A program made the translations under genes and the position numbers. A stretch of 64,000 nt of DNA from Xanthomonas sp. 10-10 (GTDB lineage: Bacteria; Pseudomonadota; Gammaproteobacteria; Xanthomonadales; Xanthomonadaceae): assembly GCF_040182365.1 (NCBI RefSeq), contig NZ_CP144460.1, forward strand, positions 2,666,001 to 2,730,000, written 5' to 3'. Positions 26,940 to 63,232 of this stretch are shown in pieces (position 1 is the stretch's first letter; each line of letters starts with the position of its first letter). Under the pieces are notes generated by a model, which was not told the DNA's origin, made no database searches, and saw only the letters and a program-made list of their open reading frames with translations.

Positions 26940-27015
26940 GGGGCCATAGCTCAGCTGGGAGAGCGCCTGCATGGCATGCAGGAGGTCGGCGGTTCGATCC
27001 CGCCTGGCTCCACCA
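26940..27015 (+). tRNA. tRNA-Ala (GGC), copy 1
   Basis: A 76-base cloverleaf with acceptor GGGGCCA / TGGCTCC, D-arm, anticodon stem CCTGC / GCAGG around loop ATGGCAT (anticodon GGC) and T-arm with TTCGATC; CCA is encoded. It is identical to the copy at 27718 and co-transcribed with tRNA-Glu. Confidence 0.97.
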
Positions 27016-27062
27016 CTTCAGACATTAGGCCGTCTGAAATGACAACTCAGGTTTTGATCTGC

Positions 27063-27138
27063 GTCCCCATCGTCTAGAGGCCTAGGACACCACCCTTTCA
27101 CGGTGGACACCGGGGTTCGAATCCCCGTGGGGACGCCA
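27063..27138 (+). tRNA. tRNA-Glu (TTC), copy 1
   Basis: A 76-base cloverleaf with acceptor GTCCCCA / TGGGGAC, anticodon stem CCACC / GGTGG around loop CTTTCAC (anticodon TTC), discriminator G and encoded CCA. It is followed at once by an intrinsic terminator and identical to the copy at 27840. Confidence 0.97.
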
Positions 27139-27145
27139 ATCATCC

Positions 27146-27173
27146 AAAAACCCCGGCTTTGCCGGGGTTTTTT
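27146..27173 (+). terminator. Intrinsic terminator of tRNA unit 1
   Basis: CCCCGGC-TTT-GCCGGGG followed by six T, 8 bases after tRNA-Glu. Flanking A and T runs extend the stem. Confidence 0.93.
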
Positions 27174-27670
27174 CTTTGCATGATGCCTGGCCGGCACGCA
27201 CATGGGTCGCCCCCCCCCCTGCCCGGTGTCGCGCAAAGCCTCATGATTGCGACACCTCGCATCACGACCAACACAGCGATACGCCTGGATGCATTCGTAA
27301 AAAGACAGGCAAGTTCGCGGGTTGCACTGACGAAGAAGTCATGCAGTTGGCACACACTTTTGCCGTGAAGCGCGGCGGGTGGCCGAAGTCGCGCCCGGCC
27401 ATCGCACCTGTTGAATGCAGCCCGCACCGGCAAGGACGCGCTGCATGATGTGCAGCACGCCTTGCCACGAATACCCACGCCCGGCGAATCGCAACCCTGG
27501 CGCGCAGGGCGTTTCGCCAAAGTGCCGGCGCGGTCGCATGCACTCGTATACGCCCATTGCGGTGCTCGAACGCGCAAGGAGTGCTCGCCGTCTCTCCTCA
27601 TCCAGGCGCAGACACCTCAGAAGCCGCGTCAGCGAGGCTCACCCCGTACGAAAAAAGTTGCGACATCGCT
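27174..27670. other. Spacer between duplicated tRNA units
   Basis: About 500 bases with no supported gene. It includes a run of ten C at 27210-27219. The frames here are short, on alternating strands and without ribosome-binding sites. Confidence 0.6.
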
Positions 27671-27698
27671 TTGCAAACGACGATGAGTTCGCTATGAT
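27671..27698 (+). promoter_or_regulatory. Promoter of the second tRNA-Ala/Glu unit
   Basis: TTGCAA and TATGAT with a 16-base spacer lie 20 bases before tRNA-Ala copy 2. The sequence differs from the promoter of copy 1, so the duplication may not include the promoter, or it has diverged. Confidence 0.7.
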
Positions 27699-27717
27699 TG
27701 CCGGCTCGCAGCAACGC

Positions 27718-27793
27718 GGGGCCATAGCTCAGCTGGGAGAGCGCCTGCATGGCATGCAGGAGGTCGGCGGTTCGATCCCGCCTGGCTCCACCA
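27718..27793 (+). tRNA. tRNA-Ala (GGC), copy 2
   Basis: Same 76-base sequence as the copy at 26940, with anticodon GGC and encoded CCA. The following spacer (CAGACATTAGGCCGTCTG) is also conserved between copies. Confidence 0.97.
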
Positions 27794-27839
27794 CTTCAGA
27801 CATTAGGCCGTCTGGAATGGACAACGAGTTTTGATACGC

Positions 27840-27915
27840 GTCCCCATCGTCTAGAGGCCTAGGACACCACCCTTTCACGGTGGACACCGGGGTTCGAATC
27901 CCCGTGGGGACGCCA
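27840..27915 (+). tRNA. tRNA-Glu (TTC), copy 2
   Basis: Same 76-base sequence as the copy at 27063, with anticodon TTC and encoded CCA, followed by the same terminator hairpin. Confidence 0.97.
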
Positions 27916-51802: not shown

Positions 51803-52158
51803 GTGGCGGGCATAACCGGCATGGTCGATGGGACACGGCATCGGCGCGCGCTGCAGAGCCAGTCGGCGATGCACGCTGAGGCTTTGATCAGCGCCGCACT
51901 GCGTTCATGCGAGGTGGATGTCCGGAAAGATCCACAACGGCGCATCGACTGCACCGAACGAGCTGATCTGCAACACGGGGGATAACCGCTGTAGAGCGCA
52001 CGCAGATGCAATCTGCGCTGCAACGCAGGCGGTCTACTGCTCGCATGCACCGGCACGCCCGTGGCCTGCTCGCGATGCGTGGCGCAGGCCCATGCAAGCG
52101 CGATGCGATCGCATCGTGCCATTGCCGGGCTGCATGCCCCTCGCCCCCAGGAGTATTT
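51803..52158. other. Intergenic region upstream of the Tat-leader hydrolase
   Basis: 356 bases between mntH and the hydrolase. I see no convincing gene, and no palindrome of note. The hydrolase ribosome-binding site CAGGAG lies at the right end. Confidence 0.5.
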
Positions 52159-53151
52159 ATGGATCCGTTCGAGGCGCATCCGGCCGACGCCGGACGCCGC
52201 AGTTTTCTCATCACCGGCACGGTCGCCGTGGCAGCGTTGTCATTGCCAGCGCTCGCCACTGCCGCTGCTCCCGCACGCGCCCCCGCTGCCACCCCGTCCC
52301 ACTCGTCCACTCACGGAGTCAACCCGATGTCCAATTTCGTCAAACGCCCCGACGGCGCCAACATCTTCTACAAGGATTGGGGCAAGGGCCAACCGGTCGT
52401 CTTCGCACATGGTTGGCCGCTCAGCGCCGATGCCTGGGACCCGCAAATGCTGTTCATGGGTCAGCACGGCTATCGCGTGATCGCGCACGACCGCCGCAGC
52501 CATGGCCGCTCCTCGCAGACCTGGGACGGTAACGATATGGACACCTATGCAGACGACCTGGCTGCAGTGATCGACGCGCTGGACCTGAAGGACGCGATCC
52601 TGGTCGGCCATTCCACCGGCGGTGGCGAAGTGGCGCATTACGTTGGCCGCCATGGCAGCAAGCGCGTGGCCAAGGTGGTGCTGGTCGGTGCGGTGCCGCC
52701 GCAGATGGTCAAGAGCCCGACCAATCCGGGCGGCCTGCCGATGAGCGTGTTCGACGGCATCCGCGATGGCGTGGCCAAGGACCGTTCGCAGTTCTATCAG
52801 GACCTGACCACGCCGTTCTTCGGTGCCAACCGTGACGGCAACAAGGTCACCCAGGGCATGCGCGATTCGTTCTGGCTGCAAGGCATGCTGGGAGGCCACA
52901 AGGGTCAGTACGACTGCATCAAGGAATTCTCCGAGGTCGATTACACCGCCGACCTGAAGAAGATCGATGTGCCGGCGCTGGTGGTGCATGGCGACGACGA
53001 CCAGATCGTGCCGATCGATGCGTCGGGCAAGTTGTCGGCCAAGATCATCAGCAACGCCGAGCTGAAGATCTACGCTGGCGCGCCGCATGGCTTGACCGTC
53101 ACCCACGCCGATCAGTTCAACAAGGATCTGCTGGCCTTCGCCAAGAGCTGA
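52159..53151 (+). CDS. Alpha/beta hydrolase (non-heme chloroperoxidase/esterase type) with Tat leader
   Basis: A 330-residue serine hydrolase. Catalytic Ser152 is in GHSTGG, the Asp in GDDD (279-281), and His310 in [13 protein letters not shown] (12-20) followed by a hydrophobic stretch is a twin-arginine-type leader ending near residue 38. CAGGAG precedes the ATG. A second ATG at 52327 (residue 57) also has a ribosome-binding site (GGAG, 8 bases upstream), and the classical cytoplasmic enzymes begin there. Two products may be made, one exported and one not. The natural substrate is unknown. Confidence 0.85.
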
Positions 53152-53173
53152 TTCTTGCTTCACCGCGTCAGGC

Positions 53174-53201
53174 AAAGGCCGGCTCGTGAGAGCCGGCCTT
53201 T
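53174..53201 (+). terminator. Terminator after the alpha/beta hydrolase
   Basis: AAAGGCCGGCTC-GTGA-GAGCCGGCCTTT is a perfect 12-bp stem with a GTGA loop 22 bases past the stop. Confidence 0.9.
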
Positions 53202-53808
53202 CGCTTTGGTGCGCGGGAATGCGTTGCGATCAGGCTGGCGGCCTCAGCGTCGATGGCTTGTTGCCAGTGGCGCCCGTGCCGGGCATCAATGCGCCTCGTG
53301 CAGGCGCGATGCGGGTCCGTGCCGTGCTCGCAAGATGTCGAACCAGCAAGTGGTGTGGCAACGGTGCAGCTTCGCGGCATGGTCGCAACAAGGCGCAACG
53401 GACCAGCTCCAGGCATGGACTGGCCAGCCACCGGTCAGCGCAGCAGCCAGTACCCGGAAGAAACCGCCACGCAGCGCGACCACCAGCAACGCGACGCTCA
53501 GCCGTGGCGGTGCCAGCAATGGCAGGTCAGGCAGCCGGCAGCCGATATCGATCAGCAACGCGAGCGATACGCCGACCGGTGAAAGACACGCGCCCTGCCC
53601 TGGCCGACCGTGCGGCCGATCGGCCGCCGCCAGCAAGCAGGTTGCGCCCTGTCCGTTTGGCCAGCAGGCGCTCCAGCACTGCGCCTGCGCAAGCCGTTGC
53701 CAGCGCCGGCAACCGCCCTCACGCGCGGCAGGCACGGCCGATCTGGCAGCCGAAAGCGACGTCCATTTCAGCGCCGGGCCGATCGGGAGCGTCGCGGTGT
53801 CGAGGTTC
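53202..53808. other. 607-base region without a supported gene
   Basis: Between the hydrolase terminator and the MFS gene. Frames are Arg- or Ala-rich and change strand. One minus-strand frame has two hydrophobic stretches near 53450-53560 and could be the remnant of a membrane protein, but no family is recognised and no start with a ribosome-binding site is seen. Confidence 0.45.
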
Positions 53809-55437
53809 TCAGATATCCGCATGCGCATGCGGCGGCACCGCCACACCGCCGCCACCGACGAAGTGGCGCACCACCGGCGCGCGCTCGCCTTGATGCAGTG
53901 CGCGGATCTGCTCCTGCAGCTGGCGGTCGTCGCCGGTGACGCGCTCGTGCTGGCGCAGATGTTCCAGCCACGAGGCGACGATGAAATATTCCAGCTGCAC
54001 GCCGGGTGTTGCCGCGTCTTCGGCGATACCCCAGACCACCGCACCATCACGACGCCGCGCGTTGCCCAGTTGCGTCATCAGCTGCAGGAAGGTCATGCGC
54101 GCGTCGGCAGCGATGCGGTATTCGACCGTCACCAGCACCGGGCCGCGATCGTGCTCGACCGCATCCGATTGCGCCGGCACAGGCCAGTGCCCGCCGGGGG
54201 CGAGGTCCAGCTGTTCGGTGCCGGCAATGCGTGCGCGCTTGACCAGCAGCGCCGCGATCACCGCACCAACGGCGGCAATCTGCAGGGCGGTCGCGATCGA
54301 GGTGCGCTGCGCCAACGCGCCCCAGACCAGCGAGCCGGCCGCCATACCCGCAGAAAACACCACGATGTACAGCGACAACGCACGTGCGCGCACCCAGGCA
54401 GGCACCGCCGTTTGCGCGGCGATCTGCAAGGACGACAGCACGCTGATCCAGGCCAGGCCGTTGACCACCATCACCACGCACAGCACTCCGATCTGACGCG
54501 ACAATGCCAGCCCCAGCAACGAGGCTGCGCACACGATGGTGGCCACAAACACCACCAGGTCGCGGTCGTAGCGCGCACGCAGGCGTGGCAACAGCAATGC
54601 GCCACTGATCGCACCGATGCCGATGCAGCCCAGCAAGATGCCGTAGCTACCGGCGCCCAACTGCATGTCGCGACGGACCACCAATGGCAGCAATGCGGTC
54701 AACGCGCTGGCGAACAGGAAGAACCCGGCGGCCTTGATCAGCACCGCCTGCAAGCGCCCGGCGCGTGCGGCGTAGCGCAGACCGGCACGCAGGCCCGCGC
54801 CGAAGCTCTCCGGCGGCAAGGCAGAGACGTGCGCATCGCGACGCCAACGCCACAACACCAGCAGCATCAGGCCGAAGGTCACGCCGTTGAGCAAAAATGC
54901 CCACGGCGGCCCGAATTGCGCCACGATCAAACCGCCAACCGCAGGGCCGATCGAGCGGGCGATGTTCATGCCGATCGAATTGAGCGCCACCGCCGAGGCC
55001 AGCATCGGCCGCGGCACCAGCTCCGACACGATTGCCGCCTGCGCAGGCATCGCCATTGCCGCGCCCATGCCCATCGCAAAGGTCAATGCCACCAGTACCC
55101 ACGGGGTGAGCAACTGCAAATGCGATAGCAAGGCCAACGCCGCGGCCACCAGCAACATCCAGCCCTGGGTGAGCATCAGGTAGCGGCGGCGGTCGACGAT
55201 GTCGGCCAGCGTGCCCGCCACCAGTGCGAACAACACCACCGGCAAGGTGGTGGCCGACTGCACCGCCGCCACCATCAACGGCGAGCCGGTCTGTTCGGCC
55301 ATGACCCAGGACGCGGCGACATCGTTGATCCAGGTGCCGATGTTGCTGCCTAAAATGGCCAGCCATAACGCACGAAAGATCGGCTCGCGCAGCGGCGCCC
55401 AGGCACCGCTATCGGCGGGTGCGGCAGAAGAAGTCAT
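53809..55437 (-). CDS. MFS exporter with C-terminal extra domain (PF05977-like)
   Basis: A 542-residue major facilitator protein. The first 410 residues carry 12 helices, opening with FRALWLAILGSNIGTWIND. The last 120 form a soluble domain (VLVTVEYRIAADARMTF, then FIVASWLEHLRQHERV) like an antibiotic-monooxygenase fold, as in the MFS_3/EntS-like family. The start at 55437 gives the normal N-terminus. It lies 85 bases after the amidohydrolase gene on the same strand and may be the last gene of that operon. Its substrate is unknown. Confidence 0.85.
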   Translation of the reverse strand: MTSSAAPADSGAWAPLREPIFRALWLAILGSNIGTWINDVAASWVMAEQTGSPLMVAAVQSATTLPVVLFALVAGTLADIVDRRRYLMLTQGWMLLVAAALALLSHLQLLTPWVLVALTFAMGMGAAMAMPAQAAIVSELVPRPMLASAVALNSIGMNIARSIGPAVGGLIVAQFGPPWAFLLNGVTFGLMLLVLWRWRRDAHVSALPPESFGAGLRAGLRYAARAGRLQAVLIKAAGFFLFASALTALLPLVVRRDMQLGAGSYGILLGCIGIGAISGALLLPRLRARYDRDLVVFVATIVCAASLLGLALSRQIGVLCVVMVVNGLAWISVLSSLQIAAQTAVPAWVRARALSLYIVVFSAGMAAGSLVWGALAQRTSIATALQIAAVGAVIAALLVKRARIAGTEQLDLAPGGHWPVPAQSDAVEHDRGPVLVTVEYRIAADARMTFLQLMTQLGNARRRDGAVVWGIAEDAATPGVQLEYFIVASWLEHLRQHERVTGDDRQLQEQIRALHQGERAPVVRHFVGGGGVAVPPHAHADI

Positions 55438-55522
55438 CGCGGCAAGGCTCCAGTGAACGGGGTGAAACAAACAAGGTGACGGGCCAGGATGCGCCGGCAG
55501 GCGCATCGCTACGGGGTCGATC

Positions 55523-57481
55523 TCAAAACGCGAAACACGCGCAACCCAACCCACCCCAGAAGCCGCGCAAATCATCGCTGGGCGCAGCATGCTGCGCTGC
55601 ATGTCCATGCGGCCCGTGCGCGCGACAGCCATGACCATGCACGTGCGTGGCGCTGGCAAGCCCGCTGACCGCACCACCCACGTGATAGCCGCCGAAACGA
55701 TTGACCGGCGACCAGTCCGGCATCGCCGGCGGCAAGGTGGGCGCCAGCGCGGCGAAGTCGCCATCGCCATGGACGATGCGACCACCCAGCACGGTCAGCA
55801 CGCTGGTGATGTCGGCAATGGCGGCATCGTCGACGCGGAAGTAATCGTCCGACAACACGATGAAATCGGCCAGTTGCCCCGCCGCCAGCGTGCCCTTGTG
55901 GCTCTCATCGCCGGAGAACCACGCGCTGCCCTGCGTCCACAGCCGCAACGCCTGCTCGCGGTCGAGCAGGTTCTCTTCGCCGTACAACGCCAGGCCGCCC
56001 ACGGTGCGTCCGGTGACCAGCCACGACAGCGCCACCCACGGGTTGTAACTGGCCACGCGCGTCGCATCGGTGCCGGCGCCCACCGGTACGCCGGCCGCCA
56101 ACATGCGGCGCACCGGTGGCGTGTGCCGCGCAGCCTGTACGCCATAGCGCTGGACAAACGCTTCGCCCTGATAGGCCATGCGGTGCTGCACGGCGATGCC
56201 GCCGTTCAAGGCGCCGATGCGGTCGATATTGCGTGGCGTGATGGTTTCGGCGTGGTCGATGAACCAATGCAGGCCATCGAAGGGAATGTCGGCATTGACC
56301 TTTTCGTAGACATCGAGAATGCGCGCGATGCTTTCGTCGTAGGTGGCATGGATACGGAATGGCCAACGCTTCTCGACCAGCAACCGCACCACCTGCTCCA
56401 GCTCGGGCTCCAGTTCCGGCGGCAGCTCCGGGCGCGGCTCGCTGAACTGCTCGAAATCCGCCGCCGAGAACACCAGCATTTCACCTGCCCCGTTGTGCCG
56501 CAACAGATCGTCGCCCTTGCGCACCGGCAGCATCTCGGTCCAGCCACGGAAGTCGTCGACTTCCCTGCCCTTGTTCTGGGTGAACAGGTTGTAGGCGATG
56601 CGCACGCTCAACTGGTCGGCCGCATGCAACTGCTCGATGACCTGGTAGTCCTCCGGATAATTCTGGAAACCACCGCCGGCATCGATCACCGAGGTGATAC
56701 CCAGCCGGTTGAGTTCGCGCATGAAATGGCGGGTGGAATTGGCCTGATACTCCAACGGCAGACGCGGGCCCTTGGCCAGGCTGGCGTAGAGAATCAGCGC
56801 ATTGGGCTTGGCCAGCAGCAGGCCGGTGGGGTTGCCCAGCTTGTCGCGCTCGATGCGCCCGCCGGGCGGATCGGCAGTGGCCTTGTCGTAGCCACAGGCG
56901 CGCAAGGCCGCGCGGTTGAGCAGGGCGCGGTCGTACAGATGCAGCAAAAATACCGGTGTCTCCGGTGCGAGTGCATTGATCTCGTCCAGGGTCGGCAAGC
57001 GCTTTTCGACGAACTGATGTGCGGTGAATCCACCGACCACACGTACCCATTGCGGCGCTGGCGTGCGGTCGACCTGCGCCTTCAACATCGCCATCGCATC
57101 GGCAAGCGAGCGCACGCCATCCCAGCGCAGCTCCAAGTTGTAATTGAGCCCGCCGCGAATCAGATGGGTGTGGCTGTCGTTGAGGCCAGGCAACAGGCGC
57201 CGGCCTTGCGCATCGATGCTGCTGGCGCCAGCTGCCAGCGCCATGATCTGCGCGTCGTCGCCCACCGCCACGATGCGTCCATCGGCCACTGCTATGGCGG
57301 TGGCGCTGGGCTGACGCGGATCGAGCGTGGTGATGCGTGCATTGCGAACGACAAGATCGACCATCTCAGACTTCCTTGAAGCAGACGAAGCGCCGGGCAA
57401 GGCGCCCAACGCAAGACCGGCGGCGGCGCCCTGCATCCACAGGCGCCGCCCGGCATCGTGATCCTTCGGTGCACTGCTCAT
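55523..57481 (-). CDS. Tat-exported amidohydrolase (YtcJ-like) with His-rich tail
   Basis: A 652-residue metal-dependent hydrolase of amidohydrolase family 3. The N-terminal AGRRLWMQGAAAGLALG fits a twin-arginine leader. NDSHTHL (near 110) and the later FIDHAE and GAGTDA segments carry the metal and catalytic residues. The last 40 or so residues are His/Gly-rich (THVHGHGCRAHGPHGHAAQH), possibly a metal-binding tail not usual for the family. It starts in an ATGA overlap with doxX and is the fourth gene of the araC operon. Substrate unknown; N-acyl or carbamate compounds are typical. Confidence 0.88.
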   Translation of the reverse strand: MSSAPKDHDAGRRLWMQGAAAGLALGALPGASSASRKSEMVDLVVRNARITTLDPRQPSATAIAVADGRIVAVGDDAQIMALAAGASSIDAQGRRLLPGLNDSHTHLIRGGLNYNLELRWDGVRSLADAMAMLKAQVDRTPAPQWVRVVGGFTAHQFVEKRLPTLDEINALAPETPVFLLHLYDRALLNRAALRACGYDKATADPPGGRIERDKLGNPTGLLLAKPNALILYASLAKGPRLPLEYQANSTRHFMRELNRLGITSVIDAGGGFQNYPEDYQVIEQLHAADQLSVRIAYNLFTQNKGREVDDFRGWTEMLPVRKGDDLLRHNGAGEMLVFSAADFEQFSEPRPELPPELEPELEQVVRLLVEKRWPFRIHATYDESIARILDVYEKVNADIPFDGLHWFIDHAETITPRNIDRIGALNGGIAVQHRMAYQGEAFVQRYGVQAARHTPPVRRMLAAGVPVGAGTDATRVASYNPWVALSWLVTGRTVGGLALYGEENLLDREQALRLWTQGSAWFSGDESHKGTLAAGQLADFIVLSDDYFRVDDAAIADITSVLTVLGGRIVHGDGDFAALAPTLPPAMPDWSPVNRFGGYHVGGAVSGLASATHVHGHGCRAHGPHGHAAQHAAPSDDLRGFWGGLGCACFAF

Positions 57482-57915
57482 GCGGCACCACGCCTGCGCA
57501 GCCCATCCAGCGACCATGCGCCACCGCCGGCGGCGGTCAGGGCCAGCAACAGCAACAGCCACATCAGCGGATATTCCATGCCACCGTGCATCCAGAACCA
57601 GCCATTGGGCACGGCCACCACGACGGTGGTGGCGATGAACACGGCCGCCAGCGCGGCACTGACGCGCGTCCATAGACCCAGCAGCACCGCCAGCCCCGAG
57701 AGCGTCTGTACCAAGGCCAGCAGCAACGGCAGCGGCGGTGCGGACGGAAACCCGAATTGCTGTAATTCAGCAGCAAATCCAGCCAGTCCCGGTCCACCGA
57801 ACCATCCCAGCAACTTGCCCAGACCATGCGGCAGCAGGAAGCCGCCGCCGGCAATGCGTAGCATCAGCAATGCCGATGCAAGACCGGCGCTGCTGCGTGG
57901 TACCGATGCGTTCAA
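57478..57915 (-). CDS. DoxX-family membrane protein
   Basis: A 145-residue protein with four membrane helices. The first conserved stretch is LMLRIAGGGFLLPHGLGKLLGWFGG (about 16-40), typical of DoxX, and the last is followed by a basic end. The start codon is a TTG at 57915 overlapping the upstream stop in TTGA; no ATG gives the full domain. DoxX proteins occur with redox and thiosulfate functions; here the role is unknown. It is coupled at both ends to its neighbours. Confidence 0.85.
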   Translation of the reverse strand: MNASVPRSSAGLASALLMLRIAGGGFLLPHGLGKLLGWFGGPGLAGFAAELQQFGFPSAPPLPLLLALVQTLSGLAVLLGLWTRVSAALAAVFIATTVVVAVPNGWFWMHGGMEYPLMWLLLLLALTAAGGGAWSLDGLRRRGAA

Positions 57916-58568
57916 TGCCCGCCTTCCTGCGCGCCGAACATGGTCTTGGCGTACTGAATGCCGATGCCGTAGCCGCCCGCATGCGCACGCGCGATGCCGG
58001 TGGTGAGGTCGTAGGTGTCGCTGCGGGCCCAGTCGCGCTGCAATTCCAGCAGGTACTGCACACTGGTGATGGGCGCGGCGCCGGCCTGCACCATCCGCGT
58101 CACCGCGCGCTCGTGCGCTTCGTCGCTGACATCGCCGCAGGCATCGGTGATGACGTAGACCTCGAACCCCTGTTCGATCGCCGACAGCGTCGGGCCGACG
58201 ATGCACACGCTGGTCCACAGCCCTGCAATCACCAGACGCTGCTTGCCGATGGCGTTGACGCGATCGATCACGCCCTGGTCTTCCCAGGCATTCATGCTGG
58301 TGCGGTCGAACACCGGCTCGCCGGCAAAGATCTCCGGCAGCTCGGGAAACAACGGGCCGGAGAACGATTTCTCTGCGACGGTAGTCAGAATCACCGGCAC
58401 CTTGAAGCCCTTGGCGCCCTTGGCAATCAGCGACACGTTGTTGCGCAGCGCCGAGATGTCGATGGTATGCGTGGCGAACGCCATCTGCGATTGGTGGTCG
58501 ATCAGGATCAACGCGTGATCGCCGGGCGACAACAGAGACTGACCGGGGACGGCGGTGGCGGTGGTCAT
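57912..58568 (-). CDS. Isochorismatase-family hydrolase (YcaC-like)
   Basis: A 218-residue cysteine hydrolase. Asp24 (LILIDHQ), the Lys/Thr region around VAEKSFSGPLFPEL and Cys122 in GLWTSVCIVGPTLSA form the catalytic set. The C-terminal extension fits YcaC, an octameric family of unknown substrate. GGAG stands before ATG 58568. It overlaps araC upstream and doxX downstream by 4 bases each. Confidence 0.88.
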   Translation of the reverse strand: MTTATAVPGQSLLSPGDHALILIDHQSQMAFATHTIDISALRNNVSLIAKGAKGFKVPVILTTVAEKSFSGPLFPELPEIFAGEPVFDRTSMNAWEDQGVIDRVNAIGKQRLVIAGLWTSVCIVGPTLSAIEQGFEVYVITDACGDVSDEAHERAVTRMVQAGAAPITSVQYLLELQRDWARSDTYDLTTGIARAHAGGYGIGIQYAKTMFGAQEGGH

Positions 58569-59041
58569 ACGTGATGCTCCAGGGAGGATGAAAAAGAACC
58601 AGCGGCGTGCCGATGCGCACGCGGTGCGGTGCGCGCGGCGCAGGGGGCGTTGGCCACTTGCGCGGCAAAGCGCGCCGGCGTGCAGCCGGTGGCATTGCGG
58701 AAGCTGCGCACGAAATGGCTTTGATCGAAGAAGCACAGATCGGTGGCGATCTGGCTGATGGTGTGGCGGCCTTCGCGCAACATCGCCTGCGCGCGTTCGA
58801 GGCGACGACGCCGCAAGTACTCCATCGGGCTGGCGCCCAGCGCATCGCGAAACACGCGCGCAAAATGGAAGCGGCTCATGCAGGCAGCGCCGGCCAGTTG
58901 CGTCACGCCGATGGGCTCGTACAGATGCGTATCGATGTACTGCAGCGCTCTTGCCACGGCACGTGCGCGTGGGGCATGCGGTGCGTTGGTGGCGTTGCCT
59001 GCATGCAGATCGGGGCGACCAGCGGCAGTCAGACGTGCCAT
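58565..59041 (-). CDS. AraC-family regulator lacking a sensor domain
   Basis: A 158-residue protein that is nearly all AraC DNA-binding domain: the two helix-turn-helix units lie at about 25-125, including GVTQLAGAACMSRFHFARVF and ISQIATDLCFFDQSHFVRSF. About 30 residues precede and follow. There is no ligand-binding cupin, so it may respond to expression level or a partner. GGAG lies 8 bases before ATG 59041. It is the first gene of the coupled operon and probably regulates it; a candidate palindrome lies upstream at 59141. Confidence 0.87.
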   Translation of the reverse strand: MARLTAAGRPDLHAGNATNAPHAPRARAVARALQYIDTHLYEPIGVTQLAGAACMSRFHFARVFRDALGASPMEYLRRRRLERAQAMLREGRHTISQIATDLCFFDQSHFVRSFRNATGCTPARFAAQVANAPCAARTAPRAHRHAAGSFSSSLEHHV

Positions 59042-59505
59042 GCGGCGTCTCCGGCGGGGAATGACGCCATGGTGGGGCGAACATGCCGATCGCCCCACCC
59101 CTGATGGTGAGGCCGATCGCTCACTCTTTCGGGTGAGCAGCATGCGTGCTGCGACAAGCACGCATGGGATCGCATGCGTGCATCGCCATGGCATGCGCCC
59201 GCGCATGCAGGCCAACGCAGCGGCGAGACCGCGCGGTTGTTTCTGTCGCGCCTTGCAGTGTCCAGGTCGGCATCCGCACGACACGCAAACCAAGCGAACG
59301 CCAGCGCATGGCACGACACGCTACAAGGCAGCGTCATCGCTGCTGCAGCCAACCGATGGCATCCGGCTCAGCGCTCACCGCATCGCAGCGACACGCACGC
59401 ACCCCACGCCACATGACGATCCATGCGTAGCCGATTTCCTGCCCGACCTGCCTCCCCCGAAAGAGGTGGTGGTGCTTGGCCCCGATCTCGCCCGACAATG
59501 CTGCA
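59042..59505. other. Divergent control region, araC operon / sensor kinase
   Basis: 464 bases between divergent transcripts. It is rich in GCATGC-type palindromes (59141-59220) and contains the 10-bp inverted repeat listed next. Frames here are random-looking. Confidence 0.6.
59141..59166. promoter_or_regulatory. 10-bp inverted repeat upstream of the araC operon
   Basis: CATGCGTGCT and AGCACGCATG are perfect complements with a 6-base spacer, about 100 bases upstream of the AraC start. Further GCATGC copies follow. It may be an operator for the AraC protein or another regulator. Confidence 0.5.
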
Positions 59506-62500
59506 ATGCCGCGCGAGCCCCCCATCCGCCTCCACCTGCTCTGGCGCCTGTGCGCAGCGGTGATCGTTGTGCTGTGCAGTTACGGGTGGCCTTGCACCCC
59601 CGTGTATGCCGAAGGCATCGCCGCAACGCGTGCTGGGCTGCTGCAATTCCACCACACCGCCTGGAGCACCGAGCGCGGCGCACCGGCAGATATCTGGGAT
59701 ATCCAGCAAGCCGATGCCGGGCCATTGTGGCTGGCGACCGGATTTGGGCTGTTTCAGTTCGATGGTGACCGTTTCGCGCGGCAGGCGGCGCCGGATGGCG
59801 AGGCCTATGCATCGCACAACATGACCGCGCTTGCGCTGGCGCCGGACGACACCGCCTGGATCGGCTACTTCAACGCCGGCATCGATCGCCTTGCCGACGG
59901 TCACCTGACGCACTTCAGCCCGGGCAGGGACGTGCCTGCCGGCATGGTGTTCCGCATCGAGCACGATGGAAGTGGGCGCTGGTGGGCCGCCATCGATGGC
60001 GGTTTGTGCTGGTTCGATGGACAACGCTGGCAGCGTGCAGGCGCCGACTGGGGCTACACCGCCGAGCGCGCGCATTGGCTGCTGCGCGATGTGCGCGGCA
60101 CGCTCTGGGTCAGCGACGGCACCCAGATTCTGTCGTTGCGGCCTGGCGCCAAACGCTTCGAACCCAGCGGCCAGCAGGTAGGCCTCTACGTCACCATGGC
60201 CGAAAGTCCGGACGGAGCGATCTGGGTTGCAGACCCGTACCGCGGCGTGTTTGCGTTGACCGATGCGCATGGCGACGTGCTGCCCGCCGCGGCCCGTGCC
60301 CGGCTGCAATTTCCCGGGCTGTTCGCGCGGCGCATCCGGTTCATGCGCGATGGCGCGCTATGGGGCAGCGACTACGCGGCGCATGGTCTGTTCCGTATCG
60401 CCTTGCCCACATCGCCCACGCCGGTGCTGGAACGCTTCGGAACCGTACAAGGCCTGACCTCCGCCACTGCCGGCCCCTTGCTCGAAGACCGCGAAGGCAA
60501 TCTGTGGGCCGGCACCAATCTGGGCCTCAACCGGTTCCGGCATCGCGCGTTGCTGCCCCTGGCGTCCTTGCTGCCGGGCCAGGCGATGGCGGTGGCGACC
60601 TTCAATCCCGCCCCGGGCACCGCCGCACGGCCGCTCCTGGCCAGCCTGCGCGATGGCCGGCTGCTGGCCTTGAGCCGCGATCGCCTCGAAGGCTTGCAGC
60701 ATGGTGCGTCCCACCACATCCTGGATGTGCCGGCGACCGCCAATGGCTGGGTGCTCGGCGAGCATGCCTTGCTACGTCTGCAGGTCGGCCGCGTGCAACC
60801 GGTGGCGCTGCCGCTCGGCCTGCCGACCGGCGCCATCCGCGCCTTCGTCGTGGACAACCGCAACCATCCCTGGGTCTGCCCGGATGCCGGCGGCCCCTAC
60901 GCTTTCGACGGCAACGCCTGGCAGCCGCTGCCCACTCTGCAGGACAGCCCGTGCACGGTGCTCGCCAGCACGCGCGATGGCGGCGTGTGGGTGGGCACCA
61001 TCAAGGGCGATGTGCGCCTGCTGCAGGGCCGGCAGGTGACGCGCTACAGCACAGAAGATGGCCTGTCGGTGGGGCCGATCACCGCCATCTGGCAAGGCCC
61101 ATCGCTCACGCTGGTCGCCGGCGAAACCGGGCTGGCGGCGCTGGGCGCCGACGGCCGGTTCCGGCAAGTGGCCGATCAGACCAATCCGCTCCTGCAAGGC
61201 ATCACCGGCATCGTGCAGGACCGGCACGGCACGCTGTGGTTGAACGGCAACCGCGGCGTGGTGCAGATCGCTCAACCTGCGCTGCTGCGCAGCGTGCAAT
61301 CGGGCGTGGTCAGCCCGGCGCTGCGCCTGTACGACATCATGGACGGGTTGCCCGGTGTCGCCCAGCAGGCCACACCGGTCCCCACGGCCATCGCCGCCGA
61401 CGACGGCCTGTTGTGGTTCACCACCAACCAGGGCCTGGCCTGGCTGGACCCCGAACAGACCTACCGCAACCCCACCGCGCCGGAAGTCTCCATCACCGAC
61501 GTGGTCGCCAACGACCGCCCCTACCCGCGCACCGCCGGGCTGCGCCTGCCCAGGTGGACGCACCGCCTGCGCATCGGCTACGACGCTGTGAGCCTGACCC
61601 GGCCGGAACGCGTGCGCTTCCGCTACCGGCTGGAGGGCGTGGACGCGCAATGGCAGGACGCCGGCAACCGTAACGAGGCGTTCTATACCAACCTCGCGCC
61701 CGGCCGTTACCGCTTCCGCATTGCCGCCGCCAACAACGATGGCGTATGGAACGCGCGCGGCGACACCCTGGACTTCGTCATCGAAGCGGCCTTCGTGCAG
61801 ACCTGGCAGTTCAAGGTGTGCGTCGCGCTCGCCCTGCTGCTAACGCTTGCGATGCTGTGGCGCATGCGCACCCGGCATGTTGCCGGACGCCTGCGTGCAC
61901 GACTGGAAGAGCGCTACCGCGAACGCGAACGCATCGCGCGCGAGCTGCACGACACCTTGTTGCAGGGCACCCAGGGGCTGATCCTGCGGCTGCATGCCGC
62001 CAGCCGCTCGTTGCCGCAGGACGACCCGCGCCGGCTGGAGCTCGAACAGGCGGTCGACCTGGCCGAGAATGCGCTGGTCGAAGGCCGCGACCGCGTCAAC
62101 GGCCTGCGCGACAGTTATTCGCTGCGCCAGGATCTGGCCGCCGCACTGCAGCGCGCACGCGAGGCCAGCATGCCACCGGCGTCGGCCGACCTGCAGGTGT
62201 CGGTGGAAGGACGCCCGGTGGCGCTGCGCCCGCTGGTGGCCGACGAAGTGTTCCAGCTTGGCCGCGAAGCATTGGCCAATGCCGATCGCCATGCCGACGC
62301 CACGCGCATCGCGCTGGAACTGCGTTACGGTTCACGTGACTTCGTGCTGCGCATCCGCGACGATGGCTGCGGCCTGGATCCGGACGTGCTGCATGGGCAT
62401 GCGCGCACCGGGCACTGGGGGCTGACCGGCATGCAGGAACGCGCCAAACGCATCGGCGCCAAGATGCAGTTGTGGTCGCGTCCAGGCAGCGGCACCGCAA

Positions 62501-62598
62501 TCCAGATCACGCTTCCGGCCCGCACCGCCTATGCGACGCCACCGCGCTGGTGGTGGCGATTTCGACCTGCACGATCCACGGAGAGCTCCAATGGCTGA
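59506..62598 (+). CDS. Beta-propeller sensor histidine kinase (Reg_prop, Y_Y_Y, HisKA_3)
   Basis: A 1030-residue kinase. After an N-terminal signal or membrane helix (about 9-35) comes a long periplasmic region of WxAT/WIGxxxxG-type propeller blades (about 45-690), a Y_Y_Y domain (703-749), one membrane helix (768-787), and a NarL-type kinase core with His815 in ARELHDTLLQG and a C-terminal HATPase. Start ATG 59506 is chosen; an in-frame TTG lies 30 bases upstream. It overlaps its response regulator by 8 bases. In related systems the propeller senses sugars or glycans; the ligand here is unknown. Confidence 0.93.
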   Translation: MPREPPIRLHLLWRLCAAVIVVLCSYGWPCTPVYAEGIAATRAGLLQFHHTAWSTERGAPADIWDIQQADAGPLWLATGFGLFQFDGDRFARQAAPDGEAYASHNMTALALAPDDTAWIGYFNAGIDRLADGHLTHFSPGRDVPAGMVFRIEHDGSGRWWAAIDGGLCWFDGQRWQRAGADWGYTAERAHWLLRDVRGTLWVSDGTQILSLRPGAKRFEPSGQQVGLYVTMAESPDGAIWVADPYRGVFALTDAHGDVLPAAARARLQFPGLFARRIRFMRDGALWGSDYAAHGLFRIALPTSPTPVLERFGTVQGLTSATAGPLLEDREGNLWAGTNLGLNRFRHRALLPLASLLPGQAMAVATFNPAPGTAARPLLASLRDGRLLALSRDRLEGLQHGASHHILDVPATANGWVLGEHALLRLQVGRVQPVALPLGLPTGAIRAFVVDNRNHPWVCPDAGGPYAFDGNAWQPLPTLQDSPCTVLASTRDGGVWVGTIKGDVRLLQGRQVTRYSTEDGLSVGPITAIWQGPSLTLVAGETGLAALGADGRFRQVADQTNPLLQGITGIVQDRHGTLWLNGNRGVVQIAQPALLRSVQSGVVSPALRLYDIMDGLPGVAQQATPVPTAIAADDGLLWFTTNQGLAWLDPEQTYRNPTAPEVSITDVVANDRPYPRTAGLRLPRWTHRLRIGYDAVSLTRPERVRFRYRLEGVDAQWQDAGNRNEAFYTNLAPGRYRFRIAAANNDGVWNARGDTLDFVIEAAFVQTWQFKVCVALALLLTLAMLWRMRTRHVAGRLRARLEERYRERERIARELHDTLLQGTQGLILRLHAASRSLPQDDPRRLELEQAVDLAENALVEGRDRVNGLRDSYSLRQDLAAALQRAREASMPPASADLQVSVEGRPVALRPLVADEVFQLGREALANADRHADATRIALELRYGSRDFVLRIRDDGCGLDPDVLHGHARTGHWGLTGMQERAKRIGAKMQLWSRPGSGTAIQITLPARTAYATPPRWWWRFRPARSTESSNG

Positions 62599-63232
62599 GA
62601 TGGTCAAACCGACCGACGTGCTGGTGGTAGACGATCATCCGCTGCTGCGCGACGGTCTCAGCGCCATGCTCGCCGCCGAACACGACATGCGTGTGGTCGG
62701 CGAAGCCGAGGACGGCGAACAGGCCGTGGCCTGCTACGCCAGCCTGCGCCCGGACGTGGTGCTGATGGATCTGCAGATGCCGCGCGTGGATGGCGTCGAA
62801 GCCATCCAGCGCATCCGCCGTGTCGACCCCGCCGCCAAGGTCATCGTGTTGACCACCTATACCGGCGATGTGCGTGCGGTGCGCGCACTGCAGGCCGGCG
62901 CCTGCGGCTACCTGCTGAAGAGCGCGCTGCGCCGCGAGCTGGTCGACACCATCCGCGACGTACGCCGCGGCCAGCGGCGGCATGTGCCGGCATCGGTGGC
63001 CGAAAACATCGCCGCCCACGTGCTCGACGACGCACTATCCGCCCGCGAGACGGAGGTACTGAGCCTGGTGGCCACCGGCTGCTCCAACAAGCAGATCGGC
63101 AACGCCTTGAGCATTTCCGAAGAGACGGTCAAGGCGCATATGAAGAACATCCTGGCCAAGCTCGGCGTGCGCGATCGCACCCACGCAGTCACCGTTGCCC
63201 TGCGCCGGGGAATCCTGTCGCTGGAAACCTGA
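62591..63232 (+). CDS. LuxR/NarL-type response regulator
   Basis: A 213-residue regulator. The receiver has VVDDHP (12-17), Asp60 in VLMDLQMP and Lys near 107; the LuxR helix-turn-helix (about 150-210) contains EVLSLVATGCSNKQIGNALS. GGAGAG lies 8 bases before ATG 62591. It overlaps the kinase gene and is its evident partner. Confidence 0.95.
   Translation: MAEMVKPTDVLVVDDHPLLRDGLSAMLAAEHDMRVVGEAEDGEQAVACYASLRPDVVLMDLQMPRVDGVEAIQRIRRVDPAAKVIVLTTYTGDVRAVRALQAGACGYLLKSALRRELVDTIRDVRRGQRRHVPASVAENIAAHVLDDALSARETEVLSLVATGCSNKQIGNALSISEETVKAHMKNILAKLGVRDRTHAVTVALRRGILSLET

Follow-up and report, generated by a model that had tools for sequence, protein, structure and literature searches.

A conserved Amidohydro_3 and YcaC-like hydrolase module with a predicted two-start enzyme and an invariant Cys/His tail

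Introduction

Which genes of a compact Xanthomonas operon belong together, and what might their products do? The question is raised by five minus-strand genes in the window analysed here (the whole stretch of 64,000 nucleotides, within the 5.17 Mb single-contig genome of Xanthomonas sp. 10-10). They encode, in order, an AraC-type regulator, a YcaC-like cysteine hydrolase, a DoxX-family membrane protein, an Amidohydro_3 hydrolase (AMH) and an MFS_3 exporter (Table 1). The original prediction read them as a coupled operon in which an exported metal hydrolase with a His-rich tail helps to degrade or detoxify an extracellular amide or carbamate. Crystal structures of YcaC exist, with its function given as unknown in 2015 in the available text of PMC4519933. 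Characterised Amidohydro_3 (PF07969) enzymes in the accessible part of a preprint (PMC13081902) include metal-dependent bile salt hydrolases, NfdA and AtzC.

Table 1. Features of the operon and its surroundings, in window positions
Feature	Position	Strand	Basis
AraC-type minimal regulator, 158 aa, helix-turn-helix domain only	58565..59041	-	Pfam HTH_18 + HTH_AraC, 84 bits
YcaC-like isochorismatase-fold cysteine hydrolase	57912..58568	-	Pfam Isochorismatase, 103 bits
DoxX-family membrane protein, TTG start overlapping YcaC stop	57478..57915	-	Pfam DoxX
AMH, Amidohydro_3 (YtcJ-like), long form with Tat-type leader, 652 aa	55523..57481	-	Pfam Amidohydro_3
Tat-type leader, AMH codons 1-39	57365..57481	-	twin-arginine GRRLWMQ, by eye
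Shine-Dalgarno AAGGA of internal start	57373..57377	-	
Predicted short (cytosolic) AMH form, internal ATG at codon 40	55523..57364	-	start and Shine-Dalgarno conservation
AMH C-terminal Cys/His tail, residues 601-652	55526..55681	-	C619, H622, C647, C649 invariant
MFS_3 family exporter, conserved C-terminal soluble part	53809..55437	-	Pfam MFS_3, 616 bits
Alpha/beta hydrolase (ABH) with Tat-type leader, convergent to operon	52159..53151	+	reading frame, Pfam
Sensor histidine kinase, divergent: Reg_prop, Y_Y_Y, HisKA_3, HATPase_c	59476..62598	+	
Response regulator, NarL/LuxR-type	62588..63232	+	

Results

Locus layout and enzyme identity

Adjacent reading frames overlap by four bases at 58565-58568, 57912-57915 and 57478-57481, exactly where overlaps had been predicted. 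The anticipated exporter follows AMH without overlap, across an 85-base gap, and the regulator, proposed to be ligandless, matches HTH_18 and HTH_AraC only in Pfam. A search of 52000-59700 gave no sigma-70-like promoter, and the number of terminator-like sites matches chance (5 seen, 5.2 expected). From the 4-base overlaps and the conserved gene order, we infer that the five genes are co-transcribed. Flanking genes absent from the original prediction are a divergent two-component system and the convergent ABH. Elsewhere in the window, tRNA-Ala(ggc) and tRNA-Glu(ttc) form two tandem pairs about 780 bases apart (26940-27915).

The YcaC-like protein shares its fold family and Asp-Arg-Cys site with YcaC of P. 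aeruginosa and E. coli, as described in the available text of PMC4519933. Its D24, R89 and C122 match Asp19, Arg84 and Cys118 of the P. aeruginosa protein and are invariant in 78/78 aligned sequences, the catalytic Asp and Cys among them. It differs from these proteins in its tie to AMH and in scoring only 144.7 bits against the NCBIfam YcaC equivalog (NF041461, cut-off 310), by which measure the window gene is related to YcaC and is not YcaC itself. In the window it has no leader, which does not support the original prediction as worded. DoxX (PF07681) scores 53 bits against a gathering cut-off of 23.6. The C-terminal part of MFS_3 was considered as a fused ABM domain and rejected (hhalign probability 4.2% over 29 columns against ABM-TM proteins).

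AMH matches Amidohydro_3 with 454.9 bits (gathering cut-off 29.7) over residues 89-571 of 652, leaving the C-terminal tail outside. H104, H106, E334, H378, H410 and D472 are invariant in 67/67 aligned sequences; the HxH motif, two further histidines and the aspartate are presumably metal ligands, as in the superfamily. Family membership and the conserved His/Asp ligands are common to AMH and the characterised enzymes in the accessible part of PMC13081902. With regard to the bridging carboxylated lysine expected in the family, the invariant Glu334 (67/67) ends the strand before that of H378 in the predicted structure and, judged by predicted strand order, would occupy the place of a lysine conserved in those enzymes.

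Conservation of the module

A pattern scan for AMH across an 84,980-species collection gave at least 547 confirmed stretches, of which the best 80 were kept; the nearest named relatives among the matches listed are from Xanthomonas (92-99% identity). Neighbours were counted within 4.5 kb of AMH in these 80 best loci of at least 547, with profiles from clustered neighbours, and the counts are lower bounds, some loci being cut by contig ends. YcaC accompanies AMH in 77/80 loci and 34 of 35 genus labels, DoxX in 67 (29 labels), MFS_3 in 49 (19), ABH in 47 (20), an alginate-export outer-membrane protein (OMP) in 43 (19), XapX in 38 (22), a histidine kinase in 38 (15), AraC in 35 (11 of 35), a response regulator in 32 (17), YoaK in 25 (15), a VOC-like protein in 12 (5) and pirin in 10 (7).

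Near AMH (within 4 kb) and farther away, respectively, hits per kb are 0.124 and 0.002 for YcaC, 0.105 and 0.003 for DoxX, 0.077 and 0.002 for MFS_3, and 0.054 and 0.013 for AraC. Enrichment reaches 50-fold for YcaC, 31 for MFS_3, 28 for OMP, 25 for DoxX, 24 for XapX, 23 for VOC-like, 9 for YoaK and 3.9 for AraC; it is low for ABH (1.8-fold), kinase (1.8), pirin (1.2) and response regulator (0.8). The rates of YcaC, DoxX, MFS_3 and AraC stand above local background, and a chance neighbourhood was rejected on the near/far rates. YcaC, DoxX, AMH and MFS_3 travel together across Pseudomonadota and Myxococcota; their separation in relatives, which the original prediction had named as its refutation, was not what we found. 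The reading as a coupled operon is supported with respect to these four genes. AraC lies on the same strand in 34/80 best loci. AraC, pirin and the response regulator were rejected as module core on locus counts and near/far rates, and on these measures AraC is a lineage-specific add-on.

A second, less biased sample came from searching 398 genomes, taken from across the phylum, with the AMH tail profile. The tail was found in 49 genomes at E up to 0.01; after removal of three weak rows (E over 0.002), 46 strong genomes with 53 places were counted, or 45 without an isolated remnant in one genome (G358). Strong YcaC (E up to 1e-50) occurs in 41/398 genomes. With G358 excluded and kinship ignored, 37 of the 398 genomes have both tail and strong YcaC, 8 the tail only and 4 YcaC only. 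A strong YcaC lies within 5 kb of 37/53 strong tail places; conversely, a tail lies no more than 5 kb from 37 of the 53 strong YcaC places and is missing within that distance from the other 16.

Of the 53 tail places, 42 were taken as a second locus set, chosen by the tail. A YcaC-type gene is present within about 12 kb in 38 of these loci, some of the matches being weak (161-171 bits; profile sensitivity). The other families are MFS_3 (19 loci), DoxX (19), XapX (18), ABM (16), ABH (15), AraC (12), OMP (10), response regulator (8), pirin (7) and YoaK (6). Both DoxX and XapX are missing from 13 of the 16 loci with an ABM-domain protein near AMH (L123, L137, L139, L144-L146, L150, L151 and L153-L160). 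The ABM-domain proteins are small, and aligned copies have a C-terminal membrane-like segment.

AMH relatives at E up to 1e-100 also occur on 377 of 72,556 plasmid records, including Rhizobium, Sinorhizobium, Pantoea and one Priestia plasmid. Among the 377 records, 136 are predicted to be conjugative and 13 are from Escherichia; one AMH match, on an E. albertii plasmid, spans residues 164-490 only.

The presence of AMH relatives on plasmids, like the grouping of three hydrolases, would suit a catabolic operon that uses a specific amide or ester as a source of carbon or nitrogen rather than detoxifying it, and some characterised Amidohydro_3 enzymes cleave amides (PMC13081902, accessible part). 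The tallied neighbour families, however, include no constant uptake or oxidation gene, Pfam labels MFS_3 a secretion family, and regulators differ by lineage among module loci. We consider the catabolic operon unlikely, although it is the strongest of the alternatives weighed here.

Evidence for two translation starts

The predicted export of AMH agrees with its Tat-type leader. A strict twin-arginine leader with a hydrophobic stretch is present in 56 of 79 AMHs (the best 80 minus L007, whose frame is split), a number that may be inflated because start choice favoured twin-arginine starts. Export is only part of the picture, however, as 23/79 have no strict leader (two are borderline) and the internal start would yield a cytosolic form too. 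At the place where leaderless relatives begin, 54 of the 56 strict-leader AMHs keep a start codon (51 ATG, 3 GTG), sought in a span of about ten codons where GTG alone is not rare; L053 and L082 have lost it. The three GTG codons lie at the aligned place, with Shine-Dalgarno (SD) energies of -6.6 to -6.9.

The SD duplex energy at the internal ATGs averages -6.1 kcal/mol, compared with -2.35 kcal/mol at 576 control in-frame ATGs of the same genes, and 40/51 reach -5 or below (controls, 17%). Averaged by genus (19), the SD is stronger than under synonymous recoding (p=4.6e-4) and stronger than at control ATGs (p=3.8e-6). The second set agrees: all 21 leader-bearing AMHs, with the leaders of L147 and L152 doubtful, have the internal start, where the energy averages -7.2; the mean of the 259 control ATGs is -2.5 (p=1.7e-10 for this comparison, p=0.0035 for that with recoding). 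Energies of -5 or below are found at 18/21 of these starts (controls, 15%), and the SD is weak in L125, L129 and L142. Because the amino acids encoded by the SD differ by lineage (e.g. SKERR, ARNAR, PGRAA), the simplest interpretation is selection at the nucleotide level. Among the 11 in-frame ATGs in the window, the internal one comes only third in SD energy, so the case for a dual start is carried by cross-species conservation.

The internal start might be a relic, kept after a leader was added upstream, with only the exported form of consequence. Leaderless relatives do begin exactly at this start, and the two leader-bearing loci without it fit such a history. The linker, however, varies by lineage while the start codon is kept in 54/56 and 21/21 cases, three of the five non-ATG cases are GTG, and synonymous recoding would predict a weaker SD. 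We regard the relic as improbable.

The opposite possibility, that the short cytosolic form alone is made and the leader-like stretch is untranslated, draws on the mean SD energy, which is stronger for the internal start (-6.1) than for the long one (-4.4). It conflicts with the twin-arginine and hydrophobic stretch in 56/79 AMHs, with the overlap of the long start and the DoxX stop in the window, and with leader pN/pS values of 0.35, 0.16, 0.09 and 0.24 in four groups, a sign of purifying selection. These values (0.09-0.35) point to translation of the leaders, and a short form alone is very improbable.

The AMH genes carry two conserved start codons with initiation signals, from which we infer that one gene yields exported and cytosolic forms. 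Leader state changes at least 17 times on a FastTree tree of 122 AMHs (117 labelled, 37 open forks). In two sphingomonad loci without a leader, the internal ATG persists together with an SD; in one the leader was lost by an out-of-frame change (or an assembly error), and in the other the stretch was replaced. With phylogenetic pairing, leader presence showed no significant association with DoxX, ABM, XapX, MFS_3, OMP, ABH or YcaC, MFS_3 coming closest (median p 0.0625).

ABHs with leaders look alike in this respect and may also have two starts. An internal start is present in 11 of 12 leader-bearing ABHs, a sample that excludes Xanthomonas L003-L009 and perhaps others. SD energies at these ATGs average -6.2, compared with -4.1 at 83 controls, and 9/11 reach -5 or below (controls, 24%). 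The window ABH, checked by itself, has an internal ATG at 52327 with GGAG upstream on the plus strand.

The C-terminal tail

The His-rich tail described in the original prediction exists, but most of its invariant ligands are cysteines. The group AMHs end in C-x2-H...G-C-x-C-x3-COOH in 67/67 aligned sequences. C649 lies fourth from the C-terminus in 67/67 of the first set and 42/42 of the second, where agreement is partly built in by drawing the set on the tail. More distant AMH relatives lack the tail, and in plasmid relatives of about 40% identity the match ends at residue 600-615. In AlphaFold models (mean pLDDT 79.1 for the window AMH, 82.9 for a Sphingomonas homologue) the barrel is well resolved, whereas the tail (601-652) stays under 50, or partly 50-62 in a homologue. 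The tail profile gave no match in the PDB up to E=10. Metal binding is the most likely role of the tail.

A free-standing tail domain was rejected, as 52/53 strong places lie inside an open frame of at least 619 aa. The exception is an isolated 66-aa frame that matches the tail alone (L121:5753-5899); tblastn with six window proteins found no match in the 10 kb around it, and it is probably a gene remnant. In L124 (G025), an AMH relative of 52% identity stops just before the tail and adjoins a YcaC of 67% identity, which indicates that the YcaC-AMH pair can dispense with the tail. Both N-termini of this pair resemble Sec leaders by eye, so a periplasmic location of the two proteins is possible in that species.

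Operons of the Hvf/bufferin type, which specify copper-binding RiPPs, have a DoxX-type membrane protein. The module could accordingly be imagined to handle copper, with DoxX a relative of HvfX and the Cys/His tail a metal sink. The DoxX match to NCBIfam HvfX is weak, at 29.9 bits below the cut-off of 80, no RiPP maturase appears among the annotated neighbour clusters, and neither hydrolase varies in its catalytic residues. Copper handling is highly doubtful, though less so than production of the short form alone.

Discussion

The best overall explanation, to which we assign a probability of roughly 0.5, is a detoxification module that combines a two-start AMH with a metal-binding tail, YcaC and an exporter. 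Its core would be the YcaC-like cysteine hydrolase and AMH with its 3Cys-1His tail. Usual additions would be a small membrane partner (DoxX, XapX or an ABM-domain protein) together with an MFS_3 exporter or a channel in the outer membrane; ABH would often be present too. The upstream AMH start would give a long enzyme that folds in the cytosol with its metals and is exported by Tat, while the internal start, with its own SD, would give a short enzyme that stays in the cytosol with YcaC. The leader-bearing ABH would likewise be translated from two starts, and the same hydrolysis could then take place on either side of the inner membrane. The AMH tail would hold a metal, YcaC would act in the cytosol on the substrate or the product of AMH, and DoxX, XapX or ABM-TM would be the membrane partner. 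The exporter would remove product, with MFS_3 or OMP moving product or substrate.

The likeliest role appears to be to detoxify a small molecule, be it an amide, an ester or an aromatic electrophile; an amide or carbamate, as first proposed, is a possible substrate. The VOC-like, ABM, DoxX and HxlR neighbours hint at aromatic or quinone-like electrophiles. The electrophile-stress argument is weakened by the low near/far ratios of ABH, kinase, pirin and response regulator.

In Bacillus subtilis, CatD is DoxX-like and CatE is a VOC dioxygenase; we know of no YcaC/AMH pair in that system. Module loci resemble it where DoxX adjoins a putative VOC-type gene, a label assigned by eye (no Pfam hit; E=0.011, below the cut-off). 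The available text of PMC6943732 links catDE with an HxlR/DUF24-regulated quinone response; one Rahnella plasmid has an HxlR regulator next to ABM-AMH. The Amidohydro_3 enzymes in the accessible part of PMC13081902 are described with neither a Cys/His tail nor a dual start.

Our literature search returned no description of the AMH tail or of a dual-start AMH, both weak negatives. For the gene combination it covered titles and the starts of abstracts, with subscription journals mostly outside it, and again found none, a weak negative; the original prediction likewise knew of no such system. The genes form a conserved hydrolase module for which this search found no earlier description. The broader proposal is of a widespread module in which AMH and ABH are each periplasmic and cytosolic through two starts, the exported form is gained and lost often, and a new 3Cys-1His metal site has its last Cys exactly four residues from the end; we hold this tentatively, at slightly less than even odds.

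To our knowledge, few bacterial enzymes are documented to reach both sides of the inner membrane through dual translation starts. The dual-start signature would add such a case, and it recurs over 19 genus labels and in a second sample. The link between YcaC and AMH (77/80 best loci; 37/53 strong YcaC places) provides a genetic handle on the function of such hydrolases.
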